Source of the DNA: a virus
Virus record (IMG/VR): IMGVR_UViG_3300043172_000653
Location: 1 to 23,482 of that record
DNA: 23,482 nt
Reading direction: 5' to 3' (one strand)
Every line of letters begins with the position of its first letter. The first letter of the stretch is position 1. This document shows positions 1 through 22,576 of the stretch, one piece after another. Position numbers and translations under genes: made by a program. Under the pieces are notes generated by a model. The model was not told where the DNA came from. It did not search any database and worked only from the letters and a program-made list of their open reading frames with translations.

Positions 1-417
1 AAAATCAACATGGTAGGGGTAGGTGAGGTACCGAACTTTGCAAAGACGAAACCACCGTGGATTAACTATGTGTGTGGTGCTAACCGAGCAGAGATGGCTC
101 AGGTTATGAGTCAGGTAGATATCTGGCTTGTCGCGTCACACTCTGAAGGCCTAGGGCGCATGACATTGGAAGCTATGTCCGCTGGGTGTGCCATCGTGTC
201 TACCAATACAGGTGCTGAGTTCTTGAAGAACGGAGAGAACTGCTTGCTCGCTGATGTGGGTGATGTACCCGCCCTCACTAGCGCAGTAAAGAAGCTGTAT
301 AATGACTCCGATCTAACCGAGAAGCTTGTAAGGAATAGCTGTGCTACGGCAGATAAGGTAGCTGACCCGACAGATTACATTAATAATTGGAACAAGATCA
401 TAGGAGATTTGTTTTGA
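1..417 (+). CDS. GT4-type glycosyltransferase, C-terminal part (cut by window edge)
   Basis: The reading frame is open from base 1, so the gene begins before the window; the ATG at 10 is internal. What remains is the C-terminal Rossmann lobe of a GT-B glycosyltransferase of the GT4/glycosyl transferases group 1 type. It has the E-x7-E nucleotide-sugar signature (SEGLGRMTLE), followed by AMSAGCAIVSTNTGAEFL and a C-terminal helical region. In this family the lobe binds the nucleotide-sugar donor; donor and acceptor cannot be told here. The stop (415-417) overlaps the next start by four bases, placing it first in a tightly coupled block with three further glycosyltransferases. Family assignment is firm; the role in the phage is inferred. 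Confidence 0.88.
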   Translation, partial: KINMVGVGEVPNFAKTKPPWINYVCGANRAEMAQVMSQVDIWLVASHSEGLGRMTLEAMSAGCAIVSTNTGAEFLKNGENCLLADVGDVPALTSAVKKLYNDSDLTEKLVRNSCATADKVADPTDYINNWNKIIGDLF

Positions 418-581
418 ATAGAACAGAGATGATGGATCTGATTGAGGAGAGATTTCTTAAGTCGGACGCTGGTGATTTTAACTCCGTTGACCACGCTTTG
501 ATTGTCGCGGCATCGGCTCTTCAGTACTTGGCTAATCAATGTGAGGTTGAAGATGGACAAGAGAGTACAGACACTGATTGA
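414..581 (+). CDS. Small hypothetical protein (55 aa), TTG start
   Basis: Unrecognised. An upstream TTG at 387 exists, but TTG at 414 is preferred because AGGAGA at 402-407 sits about seven bases before it and the start then overlaps the preceding TGA by four bases, the same coupled arrangement seen along this block. The product is short and probably helical (MNRTEMMDLIEERF...) with an acidic C-terminal tail and one cysteine. It has no signal peptide or membrane segment. Sampled bases 421-480 are about 42% GC, lower than in the following GT genes. It overlaps the next gene by 29 bases. It could be a small accessory protein of the GT block; no function is assigned. Confidence 0.62.
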   Translation: MNRTEMMDLIEERFLKSDAGDFNSVDHALIVAASALQYLANQCEVEDGQESTDTD

Positions 582-741
582 TGCCGCACTCTGGGCACAC
601 ACCCCCGCTTGGTACTGGAAAGCGGATGTCGCTGATCCGGCCCAGCCTTGGTGCTGTGGGTGTGAGGGGACCGTGTTGCATAAGGATTGCCCTGTAGTAG
701 CGGCAGCAAAGGAGTTGGAAGATGACGACCAGAGCAGTTAG
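553..741 (+). CDS. Small Cys/His-rich hypothetical protein (62 aa)
   Basis: The ATG at 553 is chosen because GAGG lies at 543-546; a longer in-frame version from 502 would overlap the preceding gene heavily and has no better ribosome site. A cysteine cluster, Cys34, Cys35, Cys37, His43 and Cys46 (WCCGCEGTVLHKDCP), suggests a small metal-binding knuckle, although the spacing matches no family I can name. The N-terminal part is helical (MDKRVQTLIDAALWAH) and aromatic-rich. Its last 20 bases overlap the start of the following glycosyltransferase and contain that gene's ribosome site. It is one of several small Cys-rich products interleaved with glycosyltransferases here. Confidence 0.62.
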   Translation: MDKRVQTLIDAALWAHTPAWYWKADVADPAQPWCCGCEGTVLHKDCPVVAAAKELEDDDQSS

Positions 742-1474
742 CATCTGCACATACAACCGAGGCAAACACCTCGCTGAGGTTATCGAAGGCGTACTATCCA
801 CGGTGCCTAACGGTACGGATGTGTTCGTAGTAGACGACGGTTCTACAGATGGTACCGGTAGTGAGGTGGATGAGTTCACCGCCAGTGGTGTCAAGTACTT
901 CCGTGGCCCCAACCTAGGCGTCGGAGCCAACAAGACCCGTGCCCTCTACCTCATGAAGAACCACCACTTCAGCTGCATCCTTGAGGATGACCTAGTACCT
1001 ACGGAGAAGATGTGGTTTGAGACATACGAAGCAGCTACTACCCTCATGGATGTCCACCACTGGTGCCGTGTAGTGGACAAGGAGATCCCTGATACTCTGC
1101 CTTCGTTCACGGAGTACATGAAGGGGGCCATGAATGCTACACCTATCTATGCCTCTTCACCGAGGGGTGACTTCACATTCATAACGAGGCGCGTTATTAA
1201 TACGGTGGGTGCCTTCAACCCTCTGTTCAAAGGTGTAGGATACGCGCATGGTGAGTGGTCAGGCCGTGTTGCTAAGGCAGGGCTCATCTCTCATCCCCTC
1301 AAGTGGCTCGATATCGTTGAGGCGCGTGACAAGTTCAAGCAGGTAGGTGATACGGAAGGTGGGCGCTGGGATGATGAAGTCCCCAAGATACAGGATCAGC
1401 TCGCGCACAATAAGAAGATAGCGTTCGGGCTGTCCAAGCAGGACTATCTTTACTGTCCCTTGAGACTCTCGTAA
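722..1474 (+). CDS. GT2-family (GT-A fold) glycosyltransferase
   Basis: A 250-residue protein with the GT-A nucleotide-binding start VSICTYNRGKHLAEVIEGVL, the VDDGSTDGT motif near residues 38-46, and an EDD (DxD-type) metal-binding motif near residue 88 in SCILEDDLVPTEKMW. These are hallmarks of GT2 inverting glycosyltransferases, which transfer a sugar from a nucleotide-sugar to an acceptor in the cytoplasm. It is a single-domain protein with no membrane segments, so a soluble acceptor or partner enzyme is likely. The ATG at 722 has AAGGAG at about 709-714. Its TAA overlaps the next ATG by one base (TAATG). The acceptor could be a virion protein, lipid carrier or modified base; nothing here decides. 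Confidence 0.88.
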   Translation: MTTRAVSICTYNRGKHLAEVIEGVLSTVPNGTDVFVVDDGSTDGTGSEVDEFTASGVKYFRGPNLGVGANKTRALYLMKNHHFSCILEDDLVPTEKMWFETYEAATTLMDVHHWCRVVDKEIPDTLPSFTEYMKGAMNATPIYASSPRGDFTFITRRVINTVGAFNPLFKGVGYAHGEWSGRVAKAGLISHPLKWLDIVEARDKFKQVGDTEGGRWDDEVPKIQDQLAHNKKIAFGLSKQDYLYCPLRLS

Positions 1475-2391
1475 TGGCAAACATTCTCCTAGGGTACAGG
1501 CAGGATAAAGATAAGCGTGGCGTGCCGGTCATGACCTACTCCAACAGTACACACAAGGCCTTACTAGACTTGGGTCATACTGTCACCGCTGTAGGTGAGG
1601 GTCACAGCCTAATCGGCTTCAAGGGTATAGCCACCTCAGCCTGGAACACCTACGACCTCTTCCTTGACATAGACAGCGGACGCAACAAAGAGGGGAAGCT
1701 GGCCTTTAAATGTCAGGAAGAACGAGCCCCTATCCCTTCTGCTGTACGCTACATCGATACTCACGGGTATCCTAGCTATCACAGGCGTGCGGCGCTGAAC
1801 TATGACCATGTCTTCTTCGCCGTGTGGGACAAGAGGGACATCTTCTCCAAGCACCCTTCAGTACACTGGTGCCCCAACGCCAGCGATGCCCACTACTTTT
1901 ACAAGGATATCCTTGATACTGAGGCTCGGCCCTTTGACGTAGGCTTCTTTGGCAGCAAGGGTGGGATCGATAGGGCTGACACCCTTAAGGAGATCTGTGA
2001 GCGTCACACTTGGAAGGCAGATATCCGTGAGATAGGTAAGAATGGCAACCGCTGGCCCCGCACATCAGAGGCGATGGCACAATGCAAGGTGCTGTTTAAC
2101 CACGGTCAGAAACACGATGGACCCAATCAGAGAGTGATTGAGTCCATGTTGATGGAGCGCCCCCTCCTCAGCGACTCGGATTCAAGGGATGGGATGTCGT
2201 TGTTGTTCGAGGAGGGGGAGCATTACTTGAGCTACCGAACCGAGGCAGAGCTAGCAAATAATCTAGCATGGTGCTTGCGCGAGCCTTCCCTGGCCGCAAG
2301 CATGGCGAAACGAGCTTACACCCTGGCCTATGAGAAGCATCAGGTTAAGCACAGGGTGGAGCAAATACTGGAGGTGTGTGATGTCAAGTGA
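1474..2391 (+). CDS. GT-B glycosyltransferase, CgeB-like
   Basis: A 305-residue protein. The N-terminal half resembles a degenerate Rossmann lobe (MANILLGYRQDKDKRG..., with YDLFLDIDSG). The C-terminal half, from about residue 150 (FDVGFFGSKGG), has the donor-lobe pattern of CgeB/DUF3880-associated glycosyltransferases, including GPNQRVIESMLMERPLLSD followed by FEEGEHYLSYRTEAEL. Members are predicted GT-B glycosyltransferases; the substrate is unknown. Start and preceding stop share one base (TAATG), implying translational coupling to the GT2 gene. The C-terminal residues LEVCDVK are encoded within a 21-base repeat that recurs at the end of the next gene, and this segment also contains the GGAGG site for that gene. 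Confidence 0.78.
   Translation: MANILLGYRQDKDKRGVPVMTYSNSTHKALLDLGHTVTAVGEGHSLIGFKGIATSAWNTYDLFLDIDSGRNKEGKLAFKCQEERAPIPSAVRYIDTHGYPSYHRRAALNYDHVFFAVWDKRDIFSKHPSVHWCPNASDAHYFYKDILDTEARPFDVGFFGSKGGIDRADTLKEICERHTWKADIREIGKNGNRWPRTSEAMAQCKVLFNHGQKHDGPNQRVIESMLMERPLLSDSDSRDGMSLLFEEGEHYLSYRTEAELANNLAWCLREPSLAASMAKRAYTLAYEKHQVKHRVEQILEVCDVK
2365..2385 (+). repeat. Direct repeat copy 1 at a gene junction
   Basis: This 21-base segment recurs at 2594-2614 with one mismatch (G versus C at position 12). It carries the end of one gene, a GGAGG ribosome site and the ATG of the next. Together the copies frame the 78-residue gene between them. Confidence 0.85.
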
Positions 2392-2617
2392 ACGGTGTGA
2401 GAAGGGACTTCCTGAGTTCGATTTGGAATGTCTGCGTCCTAAAGGACACTTTAGTCATACTTGTCCTTGCTTCTCCATTTATAGAGATCCAAAGTCAACC
2501 TTCTTTGGTATGGGAGTTTACATAGATCATAATAGTAGTGGGTCTTGGGAGTGTGATACGTGGTTGGTTGATGATGAGTTTCCTGATGATATTATACTGG
2601 AGGTCTGTGATGTCTAA
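2381..2617 (+). CDS. Small Cys-rich hypothetical protein (78 aa), repeat-flanked
   Basis: The ATG at 2381 is chosen because GGAGGTG lies at 2370-2376; an extension back to 2330 is unlikely since it lies wholly in the preceding gene. Cysteines are at 6, 17, 28, 30, 58 and 76, with a C-x5-H-x2-H-type pattern (CLRPKGHFSHTC) that suggests zinc binding. No named family is recognised. Both ends lie in near-identical 21-base repeats, so the protein ends in ILEVCDV just as its upstream neighbour ends in ILEVCDVK. Bases 2401-2580 are about 42% GC against about 60% for 2881-3060 in the next gene, consistent with separate acquisition. It overlaps both neighbours (11 and 8 bases). Confidence 0.7.
   Translation: MSSERCEKGLPEFDLECLRPKGHFSHTCPCFSIYRDPKSTFFGMGVYIDHNSSGSWECDTWLVDDEFPDDIILEVCDV
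2594..2614 (+). repeat. Direct repeat copy 2 at a gene junction
   Basis: Matches 2365-2385 at 20 of 21 positions. It again encodes a LEVCDV C-terminus, contains the GGAGG ribosome site and includes the start codon of the following gene, whose first residues (Met-Ser) match those of the repeat-flanked gene. Confidence 0.85.
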
Positions 2618-3371
2618 GATCGAGGGGCTTACCCCTACTATTCTGGTGATGAATGACTCGTACTACCTACCCTACGCCTTGGAATCTCTAAGGGGTAGGT
2701 TCAATCGGTACGTGATCTATGATGCAGGTAGTGAGGATGGCACCGAGAACATCATTGACTGGTTCACAGAGACAGAGGATGCTGAGTTCTTCGTCCGCAA
2801 GCTTCCCTTCGCTGTGCCTGATATCCAAGGGTGTTATCGCAACAGCATGCTGGTGGAGGCAGAGACAGAGTGGACGTTCATGGTGGATGCCGACGAGGTG
2901 TACCACCCTGACAGCCTGGACAACCTAGTGAAGAAGGTGAGCCCTGGTGGTCGCGGCGAGATCGTCGGCTGCTACGTACCAGCGATTCGATACGGAGTGG
3001 TTAGGAGAGTCGAGATGGCTACGAACCTGCTCCACCGCTACTCAGACGAGCGCACACACCACCGCCTGTACCGCAAGGACGCATACTTCACCGGTACCCA
3101 CCCAGGAGAAGTCCCTCGGTACAAGCAGAAAGAAAGCAGCGAGTTTCACATGGACGATGTTACATGCTGGCACTTCCACAACGCTCTACGTTCGCCCTTG
3201 GAGGGGTCGGTACCGAAGAGACTAGATCGAAAGGCACAAGGCACGTACCACCCAGGAGAGCTGGTACCTTTCGATCTGTTGAAAGAACTGCCTATCTTGC
3301 GGGAGCCGATCAATAACTTCCCAGTTAGTGAAGACTTGGGGAGGCTGCAACATGTCGCTAGTAAGATGTAA
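2610..3371 (+). CDS. GT2-family glycosyltransferase with DAD motif
   Basis: A 253-residue protein starting at ATG 2610, supported by GGAGG at 2599-2603; an earlier ATG at 2538 lies inside the preceding gene. The N-terminus (TILVMNDSYYLPYALESL, then YDAGSEDGTENI) is the GT-A donor-binding region, and FMVDADEVYHP near residues 90-98 is the DxD metal site. The central and C-terminal part is rich in His, Arg and Tyr (for example THHRLYRKDAYFTGTHPGEV), as in GT2 proteins whose acceptor region follows the catalytic core. It differs clearly from the GT2 protein at 722-1474, so it probably handles a different sugar or linkage. Its last 20 bases overlap the next gene. Confidence 0.87.
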   Translation: MSKIEGLTPTILVMNDSYYLPYALESLRGRFNRYVIYDAGSEDGTENIIDWFTETEDAEFFVRKLPFAVPDIQGCYRNSMLVEAETEWTFMVDADEVYHPDSLDNLVKKVSPGGRGEIVGCYVPAIRYGVVRRVEMATNLLHRYSDERTHHRLYRKDAYFTGTHPGEVPRYKQKESSEFHMDDVTCWHFHNALRSPLEGSVPKRLDRKAQGTYHPGELVPFDLLKELPILREPINNFPVSEDLGRLQHVASKM

Positions 3372-3549
3372 GTGTGGCAGACACACGCAGAACGGCTTCC
3401 TCTGTACTAACTGTCAGAAGGATTCGTCTATCGACATCCTGTACTACACTGCTGAGGATGTCGAGGATGAAGATGAGTTCGATGAGTATGGCTTCCTCAT
3501 CATTGATAGCTTAGAGGGATACGACGACGTAGAAGAAGAGGAAGACTAG
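3352..3549 (+). CDS. Small zinc-ribbon-like protein with acidic tail (65 aa)
   Basis: ATG at 3352 is preferred over an upstream in-frame ATG at 3328 because GGGGAGG (3338-3344) is well spaced before it. Cys6, Cys8, Cys18 and Cys21 (CKCGRHTQNGFLCTNC) form a half-zinc-ribbon-like pair of knuckles. Residues from about 30 onward are extremely acidic (AEDVEDEDEFDEYG and a GYDDVEEEED end), suggesting a flexible charged tail that could bind a basic partner or mimic nucleic acid. It is the last gene of the plus-strand block. Its TAG overlaps the TAG of the opposing minus-strand gene in a CTAG palindrome at 3546-3549. Function is unknown. Confidence 0.68.
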   Translation: MSLVRCKCGRHTQNGFLCTNCQKDSSIDILYYTAEDVEDEDEFDEYGFLIIDSLEGYDDVEEEED

Positions 3550-3923
3550 AAGTCTATCTCGTACTCAGGATTCTTCCGCACACCCGAGTCGTCACACATC
3601 AGGTTCCATGCCTTCTCAATAGATGAAGCATGCTTGTCTAGCAAATCCCATTCCATTTTCATATAGTAACACTTGAGGTGACCGTACTTGAAGTCGGAGT
3701 CGCTCTCAGCCCTCTCAAGGCAAGATTTGTAATGGTTGAAAGTATGCACCATCCCGTCATACAGGAAGGAATAAATCTCATCTAGGCCATCGCACGGCAT
3801 ACCGATGTACGCTCTCACTAGGTTGGGATCTGAGTGATCGTCGGGCGGCGGGTCAACAATCGCTCCCGCTGCCGCAGCCATGATCATCATGATCACTATA
3901 ACTATTGCGAGCATGATCTTCAT
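3546..3923 (-). CDS. Exported four-cysteine protein A (125 aa)
   Basis: Residues 3-22 are a strongly hydrophobic stretch (MLAIVIVIMMIMAAAAGA) after one Lys, fitting a cleavable signal peptide or N-terminal anchor; AAAAGA looks like a signal peptidase I site. The mature part is acidic, with cysteines at 44, 68, 85 and 110 and no others. The gene directly upstream on this strand encodes a protein with cysteines at 43, 67, 84 and 110 and matching residues between them, so the two are diverged paralogues. Even spacing and export suggest two disulphides in the periplasm. The start overlaps the upstream stop (ATGA). Function unknown; superinfection exclusion, lysis control or host-surface binding are possible. 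Confidence 0.78.
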   Translation of the reverse strand: MKIMLAIVIVIMMIMAAAAGAIVDPPPDDHSDPNLVRAYIGMPCDGLDEIYSFLYDGMVHTFNHYKSCLERAESDSDFKYGHLKCYYMKMEWDLLDKHASSIEKAWNLMCDDSGVRKNPEYEIDF

Positions 3924-4273
3924 TCTTCACCCGTGTATGTTGAGCATTCTTTAGCATTGAAGACATCCACTATCGCATTGCTTTGGCCTTGTAGAAACTG
4001 CCCGTGTTGCTTGATGAGAGCACAGTGCAGCAACCCATATCCGTTGTCAGCAGGCGAGTCAGCATATGCTATACAACCTTGCCAGTAAGCGTAGACATCT
4101 TGTAGTAGTGTGTGGTTGAAGTTGTACCCTTCCACCAGCTCCTCACATGTCAGGTCTTCAAGCAGCCAGTCGCTGTCGAAGTCAGCGCCATCACTCCGGA
4201 GCGCCACCAGAAACAGAATCGCCAGTATCATAATCAATGCAAACGCGCAAGCTGCTAACCTATGGAACATCAT
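3920..4273 (-). CDS. Exported four-cysteine protein B (117 aa)
   Basis: A hydrophobic segment at residues 7-25 (AACAFALIMILAILFLVAL) after His-Arg fits a membrane anchor or signal sequence, followed by an acidic domain predicted to lie outside the cytoplasm. Cysteines 43, 67, 84 and 110 align with those of the following gene: C-x23-C-x16-C-x25-C here, C-x23-C-x16-C-x24-C there. Two ATGs are adjacent (4273 and 4270). The AAGGGGGG ribosome site abuts the first, so the second may be the real start; either way it overlaps the TGA of the 1228-residue gene. No family recognised. The pair ends the minus-strand late operon, a position where phages often keep lysis or accessory genes. Confidence 0.78.
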   Translation of the reverse strand: MMFHRLAACAFALIMILAILFLVALRSDGADFDSDWLLEDLTCEELVEGYNFNHTLLQDVYAYWQGCIAYADSPADNGYGLLHCALIKQHGQFLQGQSNAIVDVFNAKECSTYTGEE

Positions 4274-7200
4274 CCCCCCTTAGTTCTTCGTCTGGCTTGC
4301 TGTTCATCTCTCAAGGCTTGGATCAGGGTGTTCCTCGCTCTACTTCGTGCGTCAGCTCCAAGCTGCCCTGCCAGATCCAGCCTCTTCTTAATCTCTTCAT
4401 CACTCCACATCTTCAGCTTCGGGTGTCGGCCTAGTGTCTTGGAGTGTTTCTTCAGCCACTCAGTGTACTTGAGCTGAGCTGTCCTTGGGTCATGCATGTA
4501 CTGCTCGGTAAAGGATCCCTGTATCTTGGTAAGGATACCCACTACCTCTTCATCGTCCTCCATGTCGAGGTGATAGTCTAGGTTCTTGACGAGGTGCTTC
4601 CGTACCTTGCCCATGTGCTTCTCAGTGATCGCCTCATTCGCAAGCTGCTGCTCGCCGGTAGCTGCGTAGGACTTGAACATCCCTACATTGTTCATAATGA
4701 AGTCGTGTGTCATGCTGCCAGGTCGGCCAGTCATCGGATCCACTGCGTTACCCGAGTCTACCAGCGCCCGAGAGTAATTGATAATCCCACCACCTGGCCC
4801 GTCATACAGTGGTACGTCGGGAGTGGTCAGCTTGAAGCCATACTTCTGAAGCAGCGGGGGAGCCAAGAACCCTAGCATTCCAGCGATTGTTTTCTCTAGC
4901 CCGCCACCCAGCGTGCCGTCACCTACAGCTTCACCATACGCGGTCTCACCTGAGAAGGCAGAGATCATGGGCTTGAGAATAGCCAACGGCTCAGCAGGCA
5001 TCTGTTCCAGTATGCCCTGAATATCCTTAGCAGGCATGTACTTACCGTAGTACTCTTCTGCGGTAGTGGTCTGCAAGAAGGTAGAGTGAGGGAGCCAATC
5101 CATCATAGCGCCACGCATCTGCTTAGCGTGAAACTCGTCTGTCGTCACGGACGAGAGGGCCGCAGAGATACCACCACCGATAGCAGCACCAATTCCTGCC
5201 GCGACTCCACTCTTACCTATCGCAGCACCAGCCGCACCACCCATCAACGCACCGGTGCCTCCTGCACCAAGGAGACCTATCGCTCCACCCTCACCAACGA
5301 CAGTAGTGTGCCCCTGCGCCCATACGGGGAGCTGATTCTTGACATCTTCTACTGCTTCCCGTGTGTCGGGCGCGTAGCCCATACCACTGAACACGGACTG
5401 CATGATCTGCGGGGCACGGAGCCACGGTATCATGCGTAGGGGGTGGTCTTGGATGTTGTTCTTGGTGATACGCATGGCCTCAGCCGGGAACGTAGCCCAC
5501 GGGAAGGCGAACTTACGCCCCTTCTTGATAGCAGAACCAACGGTGTTGTACATAGGCAAGCGCCGAGCTACCTCAGTGGCCGCAGCCTTACGAGATAACC
5601 CAGCTCCTCGGAGGTGCATGAAATAAGCCATCTTTGGCACCATGTCCTCTGCGAGATAAGCTTTAGTTAGGGTGTCGAACCACTTGACTCGGTCACCAAT
5701 TTGTGCAATGTTCTTTAGTTTGAGATACCCCTTGATCGCAGCCTTCGTGGTGGACTGATCCTTACCTAGAGACTGGAGCATATTACCAAGCCTGCCAGAA
5801 CCCTCAACACTTTGGAAGGCAGACTCTTCGATAAGCTCCCGAGTGATGGGATCACTCATCTCTTCCAGCATATCGAACTTCTTACCGTTGACCACGACCT
5901 TATCCATCTTGACACCCTTTATGATACCGGGCTCAAAGATCGAACGGCCTGCAATCCCTGCTTCCTTAGCCGCCATGTTCATCTGAGATATCTTACCAAA
6001 CACCGTCGTCATCTCACCCATCAGAGCGAGGTTCGCCGGTTTCAAGACGTTGAACCCTGCCTGATGTAGGAAGGTTATGTTACCTGTGAGGTTCTGAAGA
6101 TGGGTAGGGATAGAGCCCGCTGTCTTCATGGTCTTGTAGACGGTAGTCAGCACGTCCATCAGGGTACCTGTGGCGTGATCCGCCTGTTCCATCATACCAT
6201 TCTTACCGAAGATACCCTCAAAGACTGTCTTACGTATCCAGGGGAGTTGCTCTTCACCCTTGCCTGTCCTCTTGGCAATCATTCGCCTGAGCACAGCCGC
6301 AGCCTCAGAACCCGCCTCCTCAAGGGAGGTGAACCCAGCAGCTTCCATCTTCTTCTTGCTCATGCCAGCTGCCTTAACCAACGCAGCCGGTGCGATGTTC
6401 TCTGGTAGCACAGCGAAGTCAGTGATGAACTGGAAGTTGGAGTGGAGGATACCGTCCTGCATGTACCCCTTCATGGTTACGTCGGCAGGGTTGGTGATCA
6501 TGTTCCCTGTCTGCAACCGCTCCCAGATATCTTCATGGGAGCCCTTACGGGGTAGCATAGTGGGACTGTTCATCGTAGGCTTGCCAGAGAACTGAACGCC
6601 TACGTGTCGGACCTCTCCTTCGGGGACGAGTACTGTCTTTTCTTTACCGAAGAGTCTGCCTAGGCCCTTACGGGGTACCTTGGTAGCAACGAGGCCCGCG
6701 GCCTGTGCCTTACCTAGGAGGGGCTTGGTCGGAACGTAGTGAACTGTCGCTGTCCCCATACCATAGTCGGGGGTACCCTTGTACAGGGCAGGAAGGTGGG
6801 CATCACCGATACGCATGTACTGCTTCTGAGTAATGAACCCGCTCGCCAGCATCTCATCCTGTCGCTTCCGCGTGGCTTCCAGATAGAAGTCAGCCCACTT
6901 CTGGTTCTTAGGGGAGAGCTTACCGTACTTACCAATAGCCTTGGCTGCGATACCACCACCGGGAGCGATCTGTCCCAGGATGTAGCCGTAGATCGCCTCA
7001 CCAGCCTTCTCATCCGGCATCTCACGGAGGATAGTACCCACTGTATCATTCTGCCACAGCTTGTCATGCATCGCATGAAACTTGCCTTTGATATCACCAT
7101 TGTTGGCATTGGTAATCATACCGTTGTAGGTCTGGGAGAATCTCTTATCGAACTGGTGTCGTGCCGCCTCCCACGGTTTGATCTCTTCACCCGTCACAAC

Positions 7201-7956
7201 CTTACGGGCTCGTTCTTCCATCGCTCTGAAGCGATCAGTAGCAATCGTCTGCTGGCGCAGCATGGTGACTGTCTTCTCGTACTCAGGCCCGAGCTGTGAG
7301 AACTTCGTAATGTTCTGGTTGCTCAGCGCACCTATCTTCTGCCAGTTAGCAACCTCTTCAGCCTCGGTGCCGTACCGTCCTAGCTTGGTAGCGAGCTTGC
7401 CTACCTTGGCCGACTTGGTCAGCGCCATAGAAGCAGGCAAGAGGATCGTACCAACAAGGGAGGCGGTAGCTAAGGCGTTAGACCAGAGGGGTTCCTCTGA
7501 CCACTGCTGCTCCATGTTACTCACGCTCCAAGACCACCCTTCGGCGTCGTGCGCGATACCAATGATAGCAGCCTCATGACCGAACAGGAAGTCCAGCGTC
7601 TTAGCGCCTAGGCCTTGTACTGCTCCATCATCTAATCGGCTGGTTACTTGGCGTAGTTTAGGGGCGTTGATGTCCGGACCGGCCACCGGAGGTGGGGCAA
7701 AGTTGAACTCTGGTTTGTAGCTTTCTTCTCGCTCACTAGCGAACATCTTCTCTCTAGACGTTGACTGTCGTAGATGACTGGAAGAGATGCTCTTGTCCGT
7801 GGCGAAGGTGTTCTTAGCAACTAGGCTCTTAGCATCACCTTCATAATCACGCTCTTGGGGCTTCGGAGAAGAAGGGTCTAGCTTGGGGCCGCGATAGCCT
7901 TTACGAATAGGAGCGAAGAGTCCTTCCTCCTCCTCTGTGTCGTCGAATAAACCCAC
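4270..7956 (-). CDS. Large internal virion/DNA-ejection-type protein (1228 aa)
   Basis: GTG start with AAGGA six bases upstream. The first ~100 residues are charged and low in hydrophobicity, probably disordered. Residues ~155-175 form a hydrophobic segment (SNALATASLVGTILLPASMA). The middle is long and helical. Residues ~885-935 are a Gly/Ala-rich zipper (GAGGTGALMGGAAGAAIG and similar), typical of membrane-inserting segments. The C-terminus is basic and helical. Size, membrane-active segments and position as the last of three genes (407, 554, 1228 residues) parallel T7 gp14-gp15-gp16, so a protein ejected to help move DNA across the envelope is inferred. No transglycosylase or lysozyme catalytic motif is visible, unlike T7 gp16. 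It could instead be another large virion or polyvalent protein. Confidence 0.72.
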   Translation of the reverse strand: MGLFDDTEEEEGLFAPIRKGYRGPKLDPSSPKPQERDYEGDAKSLVAKNTFATDKSISSSHLRQSTSREKMFASEREESYKPEFNFAPPPVAGPDINAPKLRQVTSRLDDGAVQGLGAKTLDFLFGHEAAIIGIAHDAEGWSWSVSNMEQQWSEEPLWSNALATASLVGTILLPASMALTKSAKVGKLATKLGRYGTEAEEVANWQKIGALSNQNITKFSQLGPEYEKTVTMLRQQTIATDRFRAMEERARKVVTGEEIKPWEAARHQFDKRFSQTYNGMITNANNGDIKGKFHAMHDKLWQNDTVGTILREMPDEKAGEAIYGYILGQIAPGGGIAAKAIGKYGKLSPKNQKWADFYLEATRKRQDEMLASGFITQKQYMRIGDAHLPALYKGTPDYGMGTATVHYVPTKPLLGKAQAAGLVATKVPRKGLGRLFGKEKTVLVPEGEVRHVGVQFSGKPTMNSPTMLPRKGSHEDIWERLQTGNMITNPADVTMKGYMQDGILHSNFQFITDFAVLPENIAPAALVKAAGMSKKKMEAAGFTSLEEAGSEAAAVLRRMIAKRTGKGEEQLPWIRKTVFEGIFGKNGMMEQADHATGTLMDVLTTVYKTMKTAGSIPTHLQNLTGNITFLHQAGFNVLKPANLALMGEMTTVFGKISQMNMAAKEAGIAGRSIFEPGIIKGVKMDKVVVNGKKFDMLEEMSDPITRELIEESAFQSVEGSGRLGNMLQSLGKDQSTTKAAIKGYLKLKNIAQIGDRVKWFDTLTKAYLAEDMVPKMAYFMHLRGAGLSRKAAATEVARRLPMYNTVGSAIKKGRKFAFPWATFPAEAMRITKNNIQDHPLRMIPWLRAPQIMQSVFSGMGYAPDTREAVEDVKNQLPVWAQGHTTVVGEGGAIGLLGAGGTGALMGGAAGAAIGKSGVAAGIGAAIGGGISAALSSVTTDEFHAKQMRGAMMDWLPHSTFLQTTTAEEYYGKYMPAKDIQGILEQMPAEPLAILKPMISAFSGETAYGEAVGDGTLGGGLEKTIAGMLGFLAPPLLQKYGFKLTTPDVPLYDGPGGGIINYSRALVDSGNAVDPMTGRPGSMTHDFIMNNVGMFKSYAATGEQQLANEAITEKHMGKVRKHLVKNLDYHLDMEDDEEVVGILTKIQGSFTEQYMHDPRTAQLKYTEWLKKHSKTLGRHPKLKMWSDEEIKKRLDLAGQLGADARSRARNTLIQALRDEQQARRRTKGG

Positions 7957-20267: not shown

Positions 20268-20561
20268 TTAGTGTCCGATAACGATACAACTAATATCGTC
20301 AGCAGCAGCACCGGTACTTGTCAGCGTGATTCGTTTGCCTGAGATGCTGTGCTCCCAAGCGATGTCAGCGTCGTCGTCCTGAGAGACCACGATAACAAAC
20401 TTGGGGGCTACCATCTTCGAATCAAACGTATCGGCGGTATCAACACCGGTCTGCGTGGTGGTGCCATCAGACAATGTAATAGTACCCTTGAACTGAACGT
20501 ACTCCACCTTAACCGGACCCTGTACCGTCAGGAAACTCTGTGTCGGCAGTAGATTAGCCAT
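20268..20561 (-). CDS. Small beta-rich head-region protein (97 aa)
   Basis: A short all-beta sequence with no cysteine pairs, signal or membrane segment (FLTVQGPVKVEYVQFKGTI, then PKFVIVVSQDDDADIAWEHS and ISGKRITLTSTGAAADDISC). It begins MANLLPTQSF, resembling MAKLFPSKQT of the protein at 22573-22854, and its 12-base leader (AAGGAGTAAATA) is identical to that of the gene at 22868-23248, so it may belong to the same set of small head proteins. Its start overlaps the stop of the 41-residue zinc ribbon by one base. A capsid decoration or head-fibre component is the simplest idea; unproven. Confidence 0.7.
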   Translation of the reverse strand: MANLLPTQSFLTVQGPVKVEYVQFKGTITLSDGTTTQTGVDTADTFDSKMVAPKFVIVVSQDDDADIAWEHSISGKRITLTSTGAAADDISCIVIGH

Positions 20562-20686
20562 TATTTACTCCTTTTCTTATACTCATCCTGGCGCTTCGTG
20601 CGGCAAGGGGCACAGAACTTCGGTGCCTTTCCCTGAGGGCGAACCCTCTTAATAGGGATACCACATTTAGCGCAGCGGAGAGTCAT
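20561..20686 (-). CDS. 41-residue zinc-ribbon protein
   Basis: A short gene read as MTLRCAKCGIPIKRV, continuing to FCAPCRTKRQDEYKKRSK. Cys5, Cys8, Cys25 and Cys28 give two C-x2-C knuckles 16 residues apart, a classical zinc ribbon, in a very basic protein (Lys/Arg throughout). It fits exactly between its neighbours: the start lies three bases after the upstream stop, and its TAA overlaps the next ATG (TAATG). The upstream region is the end of the coding sequence, without a strong ribosome site, so coupling is likely. Nucleic-acid or protein binding is inferred from the fold and charge. Confidence 0.72.
   Translation of the reverse strand: MTLRCAKCGIPIKRVRPQGKAPKFCAPCRTKRQDEYKKRSK
20562..20573 (-). 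promoter_or_regulatory. Ribosome-binding leader AAGGAGTAAATA
   Basis: The 12 bases before the ATG at 20561 are identical to those before the ATG at 23248, and a variant (AAGGAGGGATAAATA) precedes the ATG at 22854. The strong core and shared AT-rich spacer suggest high translation of these small head proteins. Confidence 0.7.
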
Positions 20687-20689
20687 TTA

Positions 20690-21100
20690 TTATGTAAGTT
20701 CCGGTGCCGAAGCATCGTCGCCTACCGCCAAGTAGTTTACGATCGTATAGTCAGTGTCACTGATCTCAGTAACTCCGTCAATCACGACGAAGAACAGACC
20801 ATTAGCCACATCATACCCGACATCATGTAGACCTTCATCTACTTCATACGTAGGTGTACCTACCACGCCTGTCACTGCAGGTTCGAACGTAATGAAATCG
20901 ATGTTGTTCAGACCGATAGCATTGGGACCACCACGCTCATGAAGCTTCACGCCTGCGCTTAGGTAGTACCATCGCATCTGGCCCCAAACGAGGGCCTTCT
21001 GAGTCTGGACACCATTCAAGTCATGACCGCCGCCCGGGAGCGTGATCTTTCCTCGGTGTCTAATTTGTTCAATATCACCATCATCTGCGGGATATGCCAT
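20690..21100 (-). CDS. Tandem paralogue 3 of head-region family (136 aa)
   Basis: One of three adjacent related genes. Shared features are an N-terminal strand ending in a Gly-rich turn (LPGGGHDLNGV), the segment ALVWGQMRWYYLSAGVKL, the block GGPNAIGLNNIDFITFEP and the end YLAVGDDASAPELT. The protein is all-beta, with no cysteines, signal or membrane segment. AAGGAG precedes the ATG. Position downstream of the probable capsid gene suggests minor capsid, decoration or head-fibre subunits, possibly forming a hetero-oligomer; no named family is recognised. Compared with the other two copies its centre (VTGVVGTPTYEVDEGLHDVG) aligns best with the middle copy. Confidence 0.76.
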   Translation of the reverse strand: MAYPADDGDIEQIRHRGKITLPGGGHDLNGVQTQKALVWGQMRWYYLSAGVKLHERGGPNAIGLNNIDFITFEPAVTGVVGTPTYEVDEGLHDVGYDVANGLFFVVIDGVTEISDTDYTIVNYLAVGDDASAPELT

Positions 21101-21111
21101 CTTCTATCTCC

Positions 21112-21516
21112 TTATGTCAAGTCTGCGGCGGCGTTGCTATCGCCACAAGCAAGGAAGTTAATTACGCATACGTGTCCTGCCGTAGGGTTGGTATCGCCGT
21201 CTTTCACAACGTAGATATTCTCATCATCTCTACCAATCCCAGCTGTATGCATATCTTGTTCAACGTTGTATACTGGAGTGCCAGAGGCCCCTACAGAAAC
21301 TACGTCGAACCTAATGAAGTCACAGCTAGAAAGCCCGAGAGCCGCAAAGCCACCTACATTTACGAGGTTCATTCCATGGGTGTCTTCGTGCGTGCCAACG
21401 ATCTGGCCCCAGGTCAGGACTTTGTTATTGGCAGCACCACCAAGTACGGTAGCTCCACCGCCTCCGATGGTAAACGAACCAAGAATCTTAACACTTGTAA
21501 TATCGCCATTAGCCAT
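21112..21516 (-). CDS. Tandem paralogue 2 of head-region family (134 aa)
   Basis: Middle copy of the triplet. It has the Gly-rich turn (FTIGGGGATVLGGAANNK), VLTWGQIVGTHEDTHGMNL, GGFAALGLSSCDFIRFDV, a centre GASGTPVYNVEQDMHTAGIG and the end VINFLACGDSNAAADLT, each aligning with both neighbours. It carries cysteines in the GLSSCDF block and near the C-terminus that the other copies lack, so it could make an extra contact or crosslink. AAAGGAG lies before the ATG. Likely a small virion protein; the exact role is unknown. Confidence 0.76.
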   Translation of the reverse strand: MANGDITSVKILGSFTIGGGGATVLGGAANNKVLTWGQIVGTHEDTHGMNLVNVGGFAALGLSSCDFIRFDVVSVGASGTPVYNVEQDMHTAGIGRDDENIYVVKDGDTNPTAGHVCVINFLACGDSNAAADLT

Positions 21517-21528
21517 TGTAATTCTCCT

Positions 21529-21909
21529 TTAGAGGCCAGCTACTTCGAGACCGTCGCCAACTGCCAAGAACTTTACGACACAAACTTGAGCGTCAGTAGG
21601 CTTGGTATCGCCATCAAGGGCGGGGAAGATTCGATGTAGGTTATGGTTGTACGTTGCCGTAACAACTCCGTTCGCGACTGAGGCCGTGCCGTTGACCGTC
21701 TTGACATCAAAGCTAATGAAGTCAATTGTTTCTAGACCAAGTGCAGCCGGGCCACCCTTAGCTTCCAGATCCAATCCTTCAGCAGAAAGATAGCCGCCGG
21801 TGATCTCACCAGACACGATCTGTTTGTTATTCTTAGCTACGCCAGTGAGAGAACTTCCGCCCCCCGGTACTGTCTGCCGACTAAGAACCTTAATTGCAGT
21901 AATAGCCAT
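21529..21909 (-). CDS. Tandem paralogue 1 of head-region family (126 aa)
   Basis: First-transcribed copy of the triplet. It contains VPGGGSSLTGVAKNNKQIV, GGYLSAEGLDLEAKGGPAAL, GLETIDFISFDVKTVNG and the end VKFLAVGDGLEVAGL, matching the other two. The LSAEGLDLEAKGGP stretch is closest to LSAGVKLHERGGP in copy 3, while NNK near the turn matches copy 2. A short alanine/valine/threonine-rich loop in the centre differs from the others. AAAGGAG ribosome site. The triplication argues for structural subunits present in several related forms in the head. Confidence 0.76.
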   Translation of the reverse strand: MAITAIKVLSRQTVPGGGSSLTGVAKNNKQIVSGEITGGYLSAEGLDLEAKGGPAALGLETIDFISFDVKTVNGTASVANGVVTATYNHNLHRIFPALDGDTKPTDAQVCVVKFLAVGDGLEVAGL

Positions 21910-21920
21910 GTTGTTCTCCT

Positions 21921-22310
21921 TTACTCTTCAGCCATCCAATCAGGCTGTTTGATGTTGTGGCGGCACCGATCACCTTCCTCAGCACCGCAGCTATCCCAGG
22001 AACCCCAGTCTCCACCAACCCGTACTCCTAGATAGAGTACGATAGGTGCGAGATTGAGCCACCAAGGGAGTAGTTCTCTTGCATGTTTACGTAGCGCTTT
22101 GTCAGCAAAGGCTCTAGCCTCATCGGTCATAGAACCTTTTCTGTGACAGCGCGTACAGTAGTGCCAGTCGTGGACTCGTCCTGAGATCCACAATTGCCAT
22201 CGTCTGTATATCCAATCGGGAAAATACGAGAGACCATCATCCACAAAGCTAGGATAGTCTCTGCCGATGATACTCATATAGAATGCAACCTTCTCGATTG
22301 CCATTCTCAT
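21921..22310 (-). CDS. DUF1353/phospholipase A2-like protein with HDxxY motif (129 aa)
   Basis: The central segment GRVHDWHYCTRC (His47, Asp48, Tyr51) followed by DEARAFADKALRKHA (Asp70) and then VLYLGVRVGGDWGSW fits the pattern of phage DUF1353 proteins, whose HD-x-x-Y helix plus a following Asp resembles the catalytic pair of phospholipase A2-type folds; SFVDDGLSYFPDW at ~21-33 would be the DGxSxP-like region that precedes it. The fold match is from memory and enzymatic activity is not shown. A hydrophobic stretch at ~82-98 could be buried or membrane-associated. The start overlaps the upstream TGA (ATGA), no good ribosome site is seen, and a hairpin lies just before it. A second ATG at 22304 is possible. 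Confidence 0.62.
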   Translation of the reverse strand: MRMAIEKVAFYMSIIGRDYPSFVDDGLSYFPDWIYRRWQLWISGRVHDWHYCTRCHRKGSMTDEARAFADKALRKHARELLPWWLNLAPIVLYLGVRVGGDWGSWDSCGAEEGDRCRHNIKQPDWMAEE

Positions 22311-22576
22311 GGTGTGGGTACCACACCTTTGACAGCGCCCTTAGCCAAACCTTCAACTACCTTACCGGCGTTGTCACTGAAGCCTGTATCCTTGGTGTCG
22401 TACAGTATGTCTACACAGTCGTTGACTACTTCTTTCTCGGTCTCGCCTGTGCCGAACACGGTGGACTTCACCTCAGCACACAAGGTGCCGTTAGGATAGT
22501 AAAACTTGTCGTGCGAGTGGGCACACCCGAAGGTGAGCCCAATCACACACAAGATGATTATTGCTGCAAATCTCAC
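22307..22576 (-). CDS. Putative lipoprotein (89 aa), GTG start
   Basis: The N-terminus MRFAAIIILCVIGLTFGC has one Arg, a hydrophobic core and a Cys at 18 after Gly, resembling a bacterial lipoprotein signal, though the lipobox (TFGC) is non-canonical. The mature part is short, with cysteines in NGTLCAEVKST and VVNDCVDILYD and a C-terminal Gly/Val/Lys-rich tail. The start is GTG, overlapping the upstream TGA (GTGA) with no ribosome site, so translation depends on the gene before. Phage lipoproteins commonly act in superinfection exclusion or as outer-membrane spanins; this one is too little characterised to decide. Its placement among head genes is unusual. Confidence 0.66.
   Translation of the reverse strand: MRFAAIIILCVIGLTFGCAHSHDKFYYPNGTLCAEVKSTVFGTGETEKEVVNDCVDILYDTKDTGFSDNAGKVVEGLAKGAVKGVVPTP
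22311..22327. repeat. Perfect inverted repeat before the DUF1353-like start
   Basis: GGTGTGG and CCACACC flank a three-base centre. The element lies in the last codons of the lipoprotein gene and ends directly beside the ATG at 22310, occupying the place of a ribosome-binding site. A GC-rich 7-bp hairpin here could restrict entry unless a ribosome arrives from upstream. Confidence 0.6.

Follow-up and report, generated by a model that had tools for sequence, protein, structure and literature searches.

Among the described systems with which the present locus can be compared are two small proteins of phage T4. Spackle (gp61.3) is small, all-helical, and disulphide-bonded; a signal sequence directs its export, and its expected site of action is the periplasm (PMC7677548, PMC7650644). 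Its gene is early, and the protein binds the tail lysozyme at a basic patch (PMC7677548). The antiholin RI is small too; it is made with a cleavable signal peptide and is periplasmic (PMC8385771). The two genes analysed here, A (P0001) and B (P0002), lie in tandem at positions 3546-4273 of the window, by which we mean the whole 23,482-base virus record (IMG/VR IMGVR_UViG_3300043172_000653). Like Spackle, both products are small, apparently exported and helical, with predicted disulphides and a predicted periplasmic site. However, Spackle is a single-copy, early protein of five short helices with one disulphide, whereas A and B are two paralogues, encoded late, each with a two-helix hairpin and four cysteines. 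With RI they share small size and apparent export, and sequence inspection revealed AXA-type sites in all A orthologues, but A and B form a paralogous pair, one member of which is probably anchored, and the putative lysis cassette is found elsewhere.

Both genes are located on the minus strand, as are all features below unless stated otherwise, and close the late operon, where the original prediction had placed them. Gene B (3920..4273) encodes a four-cysteine protein of 117 aa with a conserved N-terminal segment that is probably an anchor, and gene A (3546..3923), the last of the operon, its exported four-cysteine paralogue of 125 aa. The stop codon of B and the start codon of A overlap by four nucleotides (ATGA, 3920..3923), probably with translational coupling, and another four-nucleotide ATGA overlap (4270..4273) connects the start of B to the stop of the upstream gene, which encodes a late protein of 1228 aa (4270..7956). 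The ATGA coupling to the upstream gene was found in the window and in the relative L032. A family search with the 1228-aa protein gave no match; judged by its position, it is possibly an ejection or internal virion protein. A promoter-like site was looked for near A and B and none was found. At the other side, a convergent small gene overlaps the end of A by four bases, and glycosyltransferase genes lie beyond it. The convergent gene (3328-3549, plus strand), whose overlap includes the stop codon of A, encodes a small acidic CKCG zinc-ribbon-like protein and is kept at the same position even in the relatives without the pair (L034, L038, L039). The glycosyltransferase cluster (1-3371, plus strand) is phage-borne, convergent with the late operon, and present in relatives both with and without the pair.

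BLASTP aligned A with B at 34.7 bits (E 4e-8, 26% identity over 66 aa, ungapped), and their local alignment reached z = 10.7 against 5,000 shuffles, none of which scored as high. With the cysteines masked, the shuffle test gave z = 5.2 and p = 0.0006. The similarity is thus not due to chance, and on these scores A and B are genuine paralogues, in agreement with the tandem pair originally proposed. The ectodomain cysteines, C1 to C4, are residues 44, 68, 85, and 110 in A (codons 3792..3794, 3720..3722, 3669..3671, and 3594..3596) and 43, 67, 84, and 110 in B (codons 4145..4147, 4073..4075, 4022..4024, and 3944..3946), with the spacing x23, x16, x24 and x23, x16, x25, respectively, exactly as first reported for the pair. 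The fifth cysteine of B, C9, is inside the hydrophobic N-terminus. The four cysteines are kept in all relatives, B of L009 being cut before C4, and their spacing is conserved in the homologues at 23 / 15-16 / 24-26. Identical positions had also been seen to recur between the two proteins. This held within the pair, where C-x2-L-x-[ED]-x-Y-x-F and a Y-G-x-L block are common to A and B of the window, but in the wider set of orthologues only C1, L, Y, F, C2, L, and C3 were strictly invariant; C4, D, and G occurred in at least 90% of the rows of the alignment. In the ectodomain tree a 100/100 branch separated all A from all B, and the duplication is therefore older than the divergence of these phages.

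The AlphaFold models had a pLDDT of 79 for A (about 88-93 across most of the core) and 78 for B. Predicted each alone, the two proteins gave the same layout and not unrelated folds: an N-terminal hydrophobic helix, a short helix, and two long helices forming an antiparallel helical hairpin. The AF2 helices span residues 44-72 and 78-109 in the A ectodomain (aa 22-125, 3549..3860) and residues 43-71 and 80-107 in the B ectodomain (aa 30-117, 3923..4186). The midpoints of C2-C3 and C1-C4 are at most one residue from each other and at most two from the hairpin turn, while C1-C2 and C3-C4 would be separated by about 36-39 Å along a straight helix. With the midpoint shared and these distances to span, only the bonds C1-C4 and C2-C3 would be possible, given a correct model; in A these would join Cys44 to Cys110 and Cys68 to Cys85. 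Most simply, the disulphides would be intramolecular staples of the helical hairpin. The C1-C4, C2-C3 topology across antiparallel helices is known from the CHCH (twin CX9C) and small TIM (CX3C) hairpins. Those are mitochondrial proteins with a spacing of 9 or 3, in contrast to the CX23C and CX24-26C of the phage proteins; the twin CX9C and CX3C motifs are absent from A and B, and no sequence match or significant fold match to these families was obtained. The Rap1a/Tai immunity family (PF18602) comprises periplasmic proteins that are small and helical and have conserved cysteines, features that A and B have or are predicted to have; its model matched none of the contigs and no A or B member.

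Foldseek gave nothing at E below 0.001 for either model against PDB or for the A model against BFVD, returning generic helical hairpins only. The compact five-helix bundle of Spackle was rejected as the fold, since AF2 gives A and B a short helix and a long two-helix hairpin and Foldseek found no significant match in PDB. Sequence searches of Pfam, PHROGs, NCBIfam, and PADLOC yielded chance-level matches only; the best PHROG match, phrog_17412, a group of unknown function, had a best E of 0.0036, with three members matched; in P0002 the match covered 23 residues. Homology to Spackle was rejected as the A/B profile had no match among PDB sequences at E 10, membership in the RI family as no match came from Pfam, PHROG, NCBIfam, or PDB, and relation to the anti-phage defence proteins of PADLOC as none of its models matched A or B. 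The original prediction had recognised no family, and none has emerged from Pfam, PHROGs, NCBIfam, PADLOC, or PDB. As judged from sequence, A and B represent a conserved, exported, phage-borne family which is absent from all databases searched here.

Both proteins had initially been taken for an exported periplasmic pair. Hydrophobic N-termini were found in both, but this view had to be refined, as A looks secreted and B looks membrane-anchored. The signal peptide of A (aa 1-21, 3861..3923) is hydrophobic with A-G-A preceding the predicted cleavage site, and an AXA-type site follows the hydrophobic stretch (maximum KD 1.6-3.0) in all A orthologues; it looks like a cleavable-type signal peptide by which A would be secreted to the periplasm. 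The N-terminal segment of B (aa 1-29, 4187..4273) is very hydrophobic, with a maximum KD of about 3.0, and its mean identity is 0.71, versus 0.36 for the A signal peptide. Since it is longer, very hydrophobic, and better conserved than the signal peptide of A, we read it as a probable signal anchor holding B in the membrane. A conserved string in B, S-x-G/S followed by A, may be a cleavage site, which would remove the anchor. No lipobox was found in any A orthologue; some B proteins have a lipobox-like string (residues 5-9), which precedes the hydrophobic core and would be an implausible site of lipidation. The ectodomains are acidic, with a net charge of -6 to -11 in A and -12 to -14 in most B, and -4 in B of L032.

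Scans of IMG/VR revealed orthologous pairs in L001, L002, L003/L012, L004/L011, L010, and L013; in L009 only B was recovered, at the point where the contig is cut. Another pair, that of L032 (contig G008, 119,470 bases), was reached via the 1228-aa upstream protein. The phage origin assumed from the start is supported. No A/B relative was found in two scans of GTDB genomes, tblastn against sequenced (named) phages gave none that was convincing, and against plasmids it gave a single match (E 0.7) over the hydrophobic segment only. The pair was present in relatives whose upstream protein has 48% or more identity to that of the window. In L034, L038, and L039, with 29-40% identity, the pair is absent from this position and the upstream gene abuts the convergent gene; a profile search of these contigs, which are fragments, found no A/B copy elsewhere. 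The pair is accessory in this phage clade. One relative, represented by two assemblies (L035/L036), has a single gene in which the B anchor is joined to the A ectodomain and the B ectodomain is deleted, and this membrane-anchored fusion suggests that the A domain alone can suffice. With one fused gene and the more distant relatives lacking the pair at the locus, the two-gene arrangement is not obligatory.

The ectodomain of B in the window is 95% identical to that of L001 versus 64% to that of L004, whereas the anchor is 90% identical to L004, which places an approximate recombination breakpoint in B at 4134..4149. Between L001 and L002 the A signal peptide is hypervariable (44% DNA identity), whereas its flanks are 97% identical. 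From these mosaic identities it follows that export segments have recombined separately from ectodomains, and that the breakpoints are close to the border between the two domains. Whatever the function, this is a clear example of signal/ectodomain borders as recombination sites. The ectodomains of the window have 93-95% DNA identity to L001/L002, whereas over its final 1,500 bases the upstream gene has about 68% to both L001 and L004; a test for linkage between the ectodomain type and this structural gene revealed none. The window shares its A and its B ectodomain jointly with L001 and L002, which are one lineage, and this is consistent with A and B being partners. Modular exchange is not peculiar to the pair, since several other late genes (for 225-aa, 129-aa, and 93-aa proteins and an 89-aa lipoprotein) are 87-97% identical to L001/L002. 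The ectodomain cores are under purifying selection, with a dN/dS of 0.00-0.06 between the window and L001/L002; comparing the A domain in L032 with that in the fused L035 gave 0.22. Among the late genes mentioned, the 89-aa one (22307-22576) encodes a lipobox (LTFGC), has 97% DNA identity to L001/L002, and overlaps the 129-aa one (21921-22310). The 129-aa product contains cysteine and a hydrophobic stretch (about 87% DNA identity to L001/L002). Its HDWHY...ADKAL motif presumably recalls phospholipase A2-like phage proteins; a Pfam search found nothing.

Superinfection exclusion, lysis timing, and envelope binding had been proposed as roles of the pair, and they stand as inference. The reading we tentatively favour, as possible rather than probable, is that A and B are a late periplasmic factor of envelope protection, excluding superinfection or lysis from without, Spackle-like in effect without being a Spackle homologue. 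Genes B and A encode a family of small exported proteins that has been duplicated and is specific to this phage clade, each ectodomain being a two-helix antiparallel hairpin, as predicted by the models, and stapled at both ends if the proposed pairing is right. To judge from the gene overlaps, they would be made late and in translational coupling to the last structural gene; A would be secreted to the periplasm, and B would be held in the inner membrane by its hydrophobic anchor with the ectodomain outside. The two ectodomains would probably serve the same envelope process, possibly as partners, and would shield the envelope of the infected cell, blocking the entry of DNA or enzyme from further phage particles or lysis from without. 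The acidic ectodomains were counted in favour of envelope protection when set beside the binding of Spackle to a basic lysozyme patch. The late position weighs against it, Spackle-type exclusion proteins being early. So does the lack of a target, as no lysozyme domain was found in the late proteins of the phage, and so does the lack of any sequence or fold relative of known function. Two further points against it are the modular exchange seen in other late genes as well and the possible cleavage of B with loss of its anchor. A more specific version, which we regard as quite unlikely, is a two-part periplasmic system in which the secreted and the anchored stapled hairpins are matched partners, their ectodomains being exchangeable specificity modules for allele-specific exclusion of competing phages. 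If confirmed, the role would place the pair beside Spackle and RI as a third, unrelated type of small phage effector in the periplasm. The natural fusion and the natural ectodomain/anchor recombinants make structure-function tests easy to design.

The main rival, which we find rather doubtful, is that A and B regulate the timing of lysis from the periplasm by acting on the phage holin or muralytic enzyme, as T4 RI does when it binds the periplasmic domain of holin T. Their late-operon position agrees with this, as does their being small, helical, and exported, RI likewise being small and periplasmic with a cleavable signal peptide (PMC8385771). An accessory distribution would suit a modulator, and conservation of the B anchor is what contact with a membrane protein would lead one to expect. 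However, neither protein resembles RI or the members of any lysis family, no holin bearing a periplasmic domain came to light, and the putative lysis genes of G008 are distant. The latter (L048:12958-13803, about 92.96-93.80 kb) encode a lipoprotein, a 125-aa peptidase, of which a Microviridae relative weakly matches hedgehog/M15 models, and a small protein of membrane/coiled-coil type that gave a weak Rz-like match. They adjoin the large terminase, while the pair is at 28.4 kb, about 64 kb away, and such a separate cassette makes A and B less likely to be essential or core lysis proteins. G008 also encodes an 855-aa protein (L046:8510-11077, minus strand) in which a uracil-DNA-glycosylase-like domain is fused to a DNA polymerase of family A that includes a 3'-5' exonuclease.

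It is also conceivable, if somewhat unlikely, that the pair raises burst size by modifying a periplasmic or membrane process of the host, e.g., through protease inhibition, envelope stress, or redox, with no relation to other phages or to lysis. Genes which are exported, acidic, allele-shuffled, and accessory would fit such a role, but nothing specific speaks for it. We consider it improbable that the pair, being coupled to the 1228-aa gene, helps phage structural or ejection proteins from the periplasm by chaperoning or anchoring the ejection machinery. Besides the ATGA coupling in the window and L032, a pair of disulphide-stapled hairpin paralogues would agree with this, and the small TIM helical-hairpin chaperones of mitochondria offer a loose analogy. 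Virion assembly is cytoplasmic, however, the upstream gene is retained in relatives without the pair, and the ectodomain type is independent of that gene (window against L001: 95% DNA identity in the ectodomain, 68% upstream). A two-component, Rz/Rz1-type spanin pair, with B as the inner-membrane subunit and A as its outer partner, is very improbable and largely refuted: the genes are adjacent and overlapping, both encode envelope proteins that appear exported, and B has an N-terminal TM, but the reading was rejected because A lacks the lipobox of a lipoprotein partner in every orthologue; A and B are, moreover, paralogues of a single hairpin fold and dispensable, with one phage having a single anchored gene and others none, and a candidate Rz-like protein and a lipoprotein are located elsewhere. 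An inner spanin subunit combines its N-terminal TM with a periplasmic coiled coil; in B the TM is followed by a disulphide-type hairpin ectodomain.

Between the capsid and tail genes of the window, at 20268-21909, there are also tandem, similar proteins of 97-136 aa. They have a common G-GG motif near the N-terminus and are apparently duplicated and fast-evolving.
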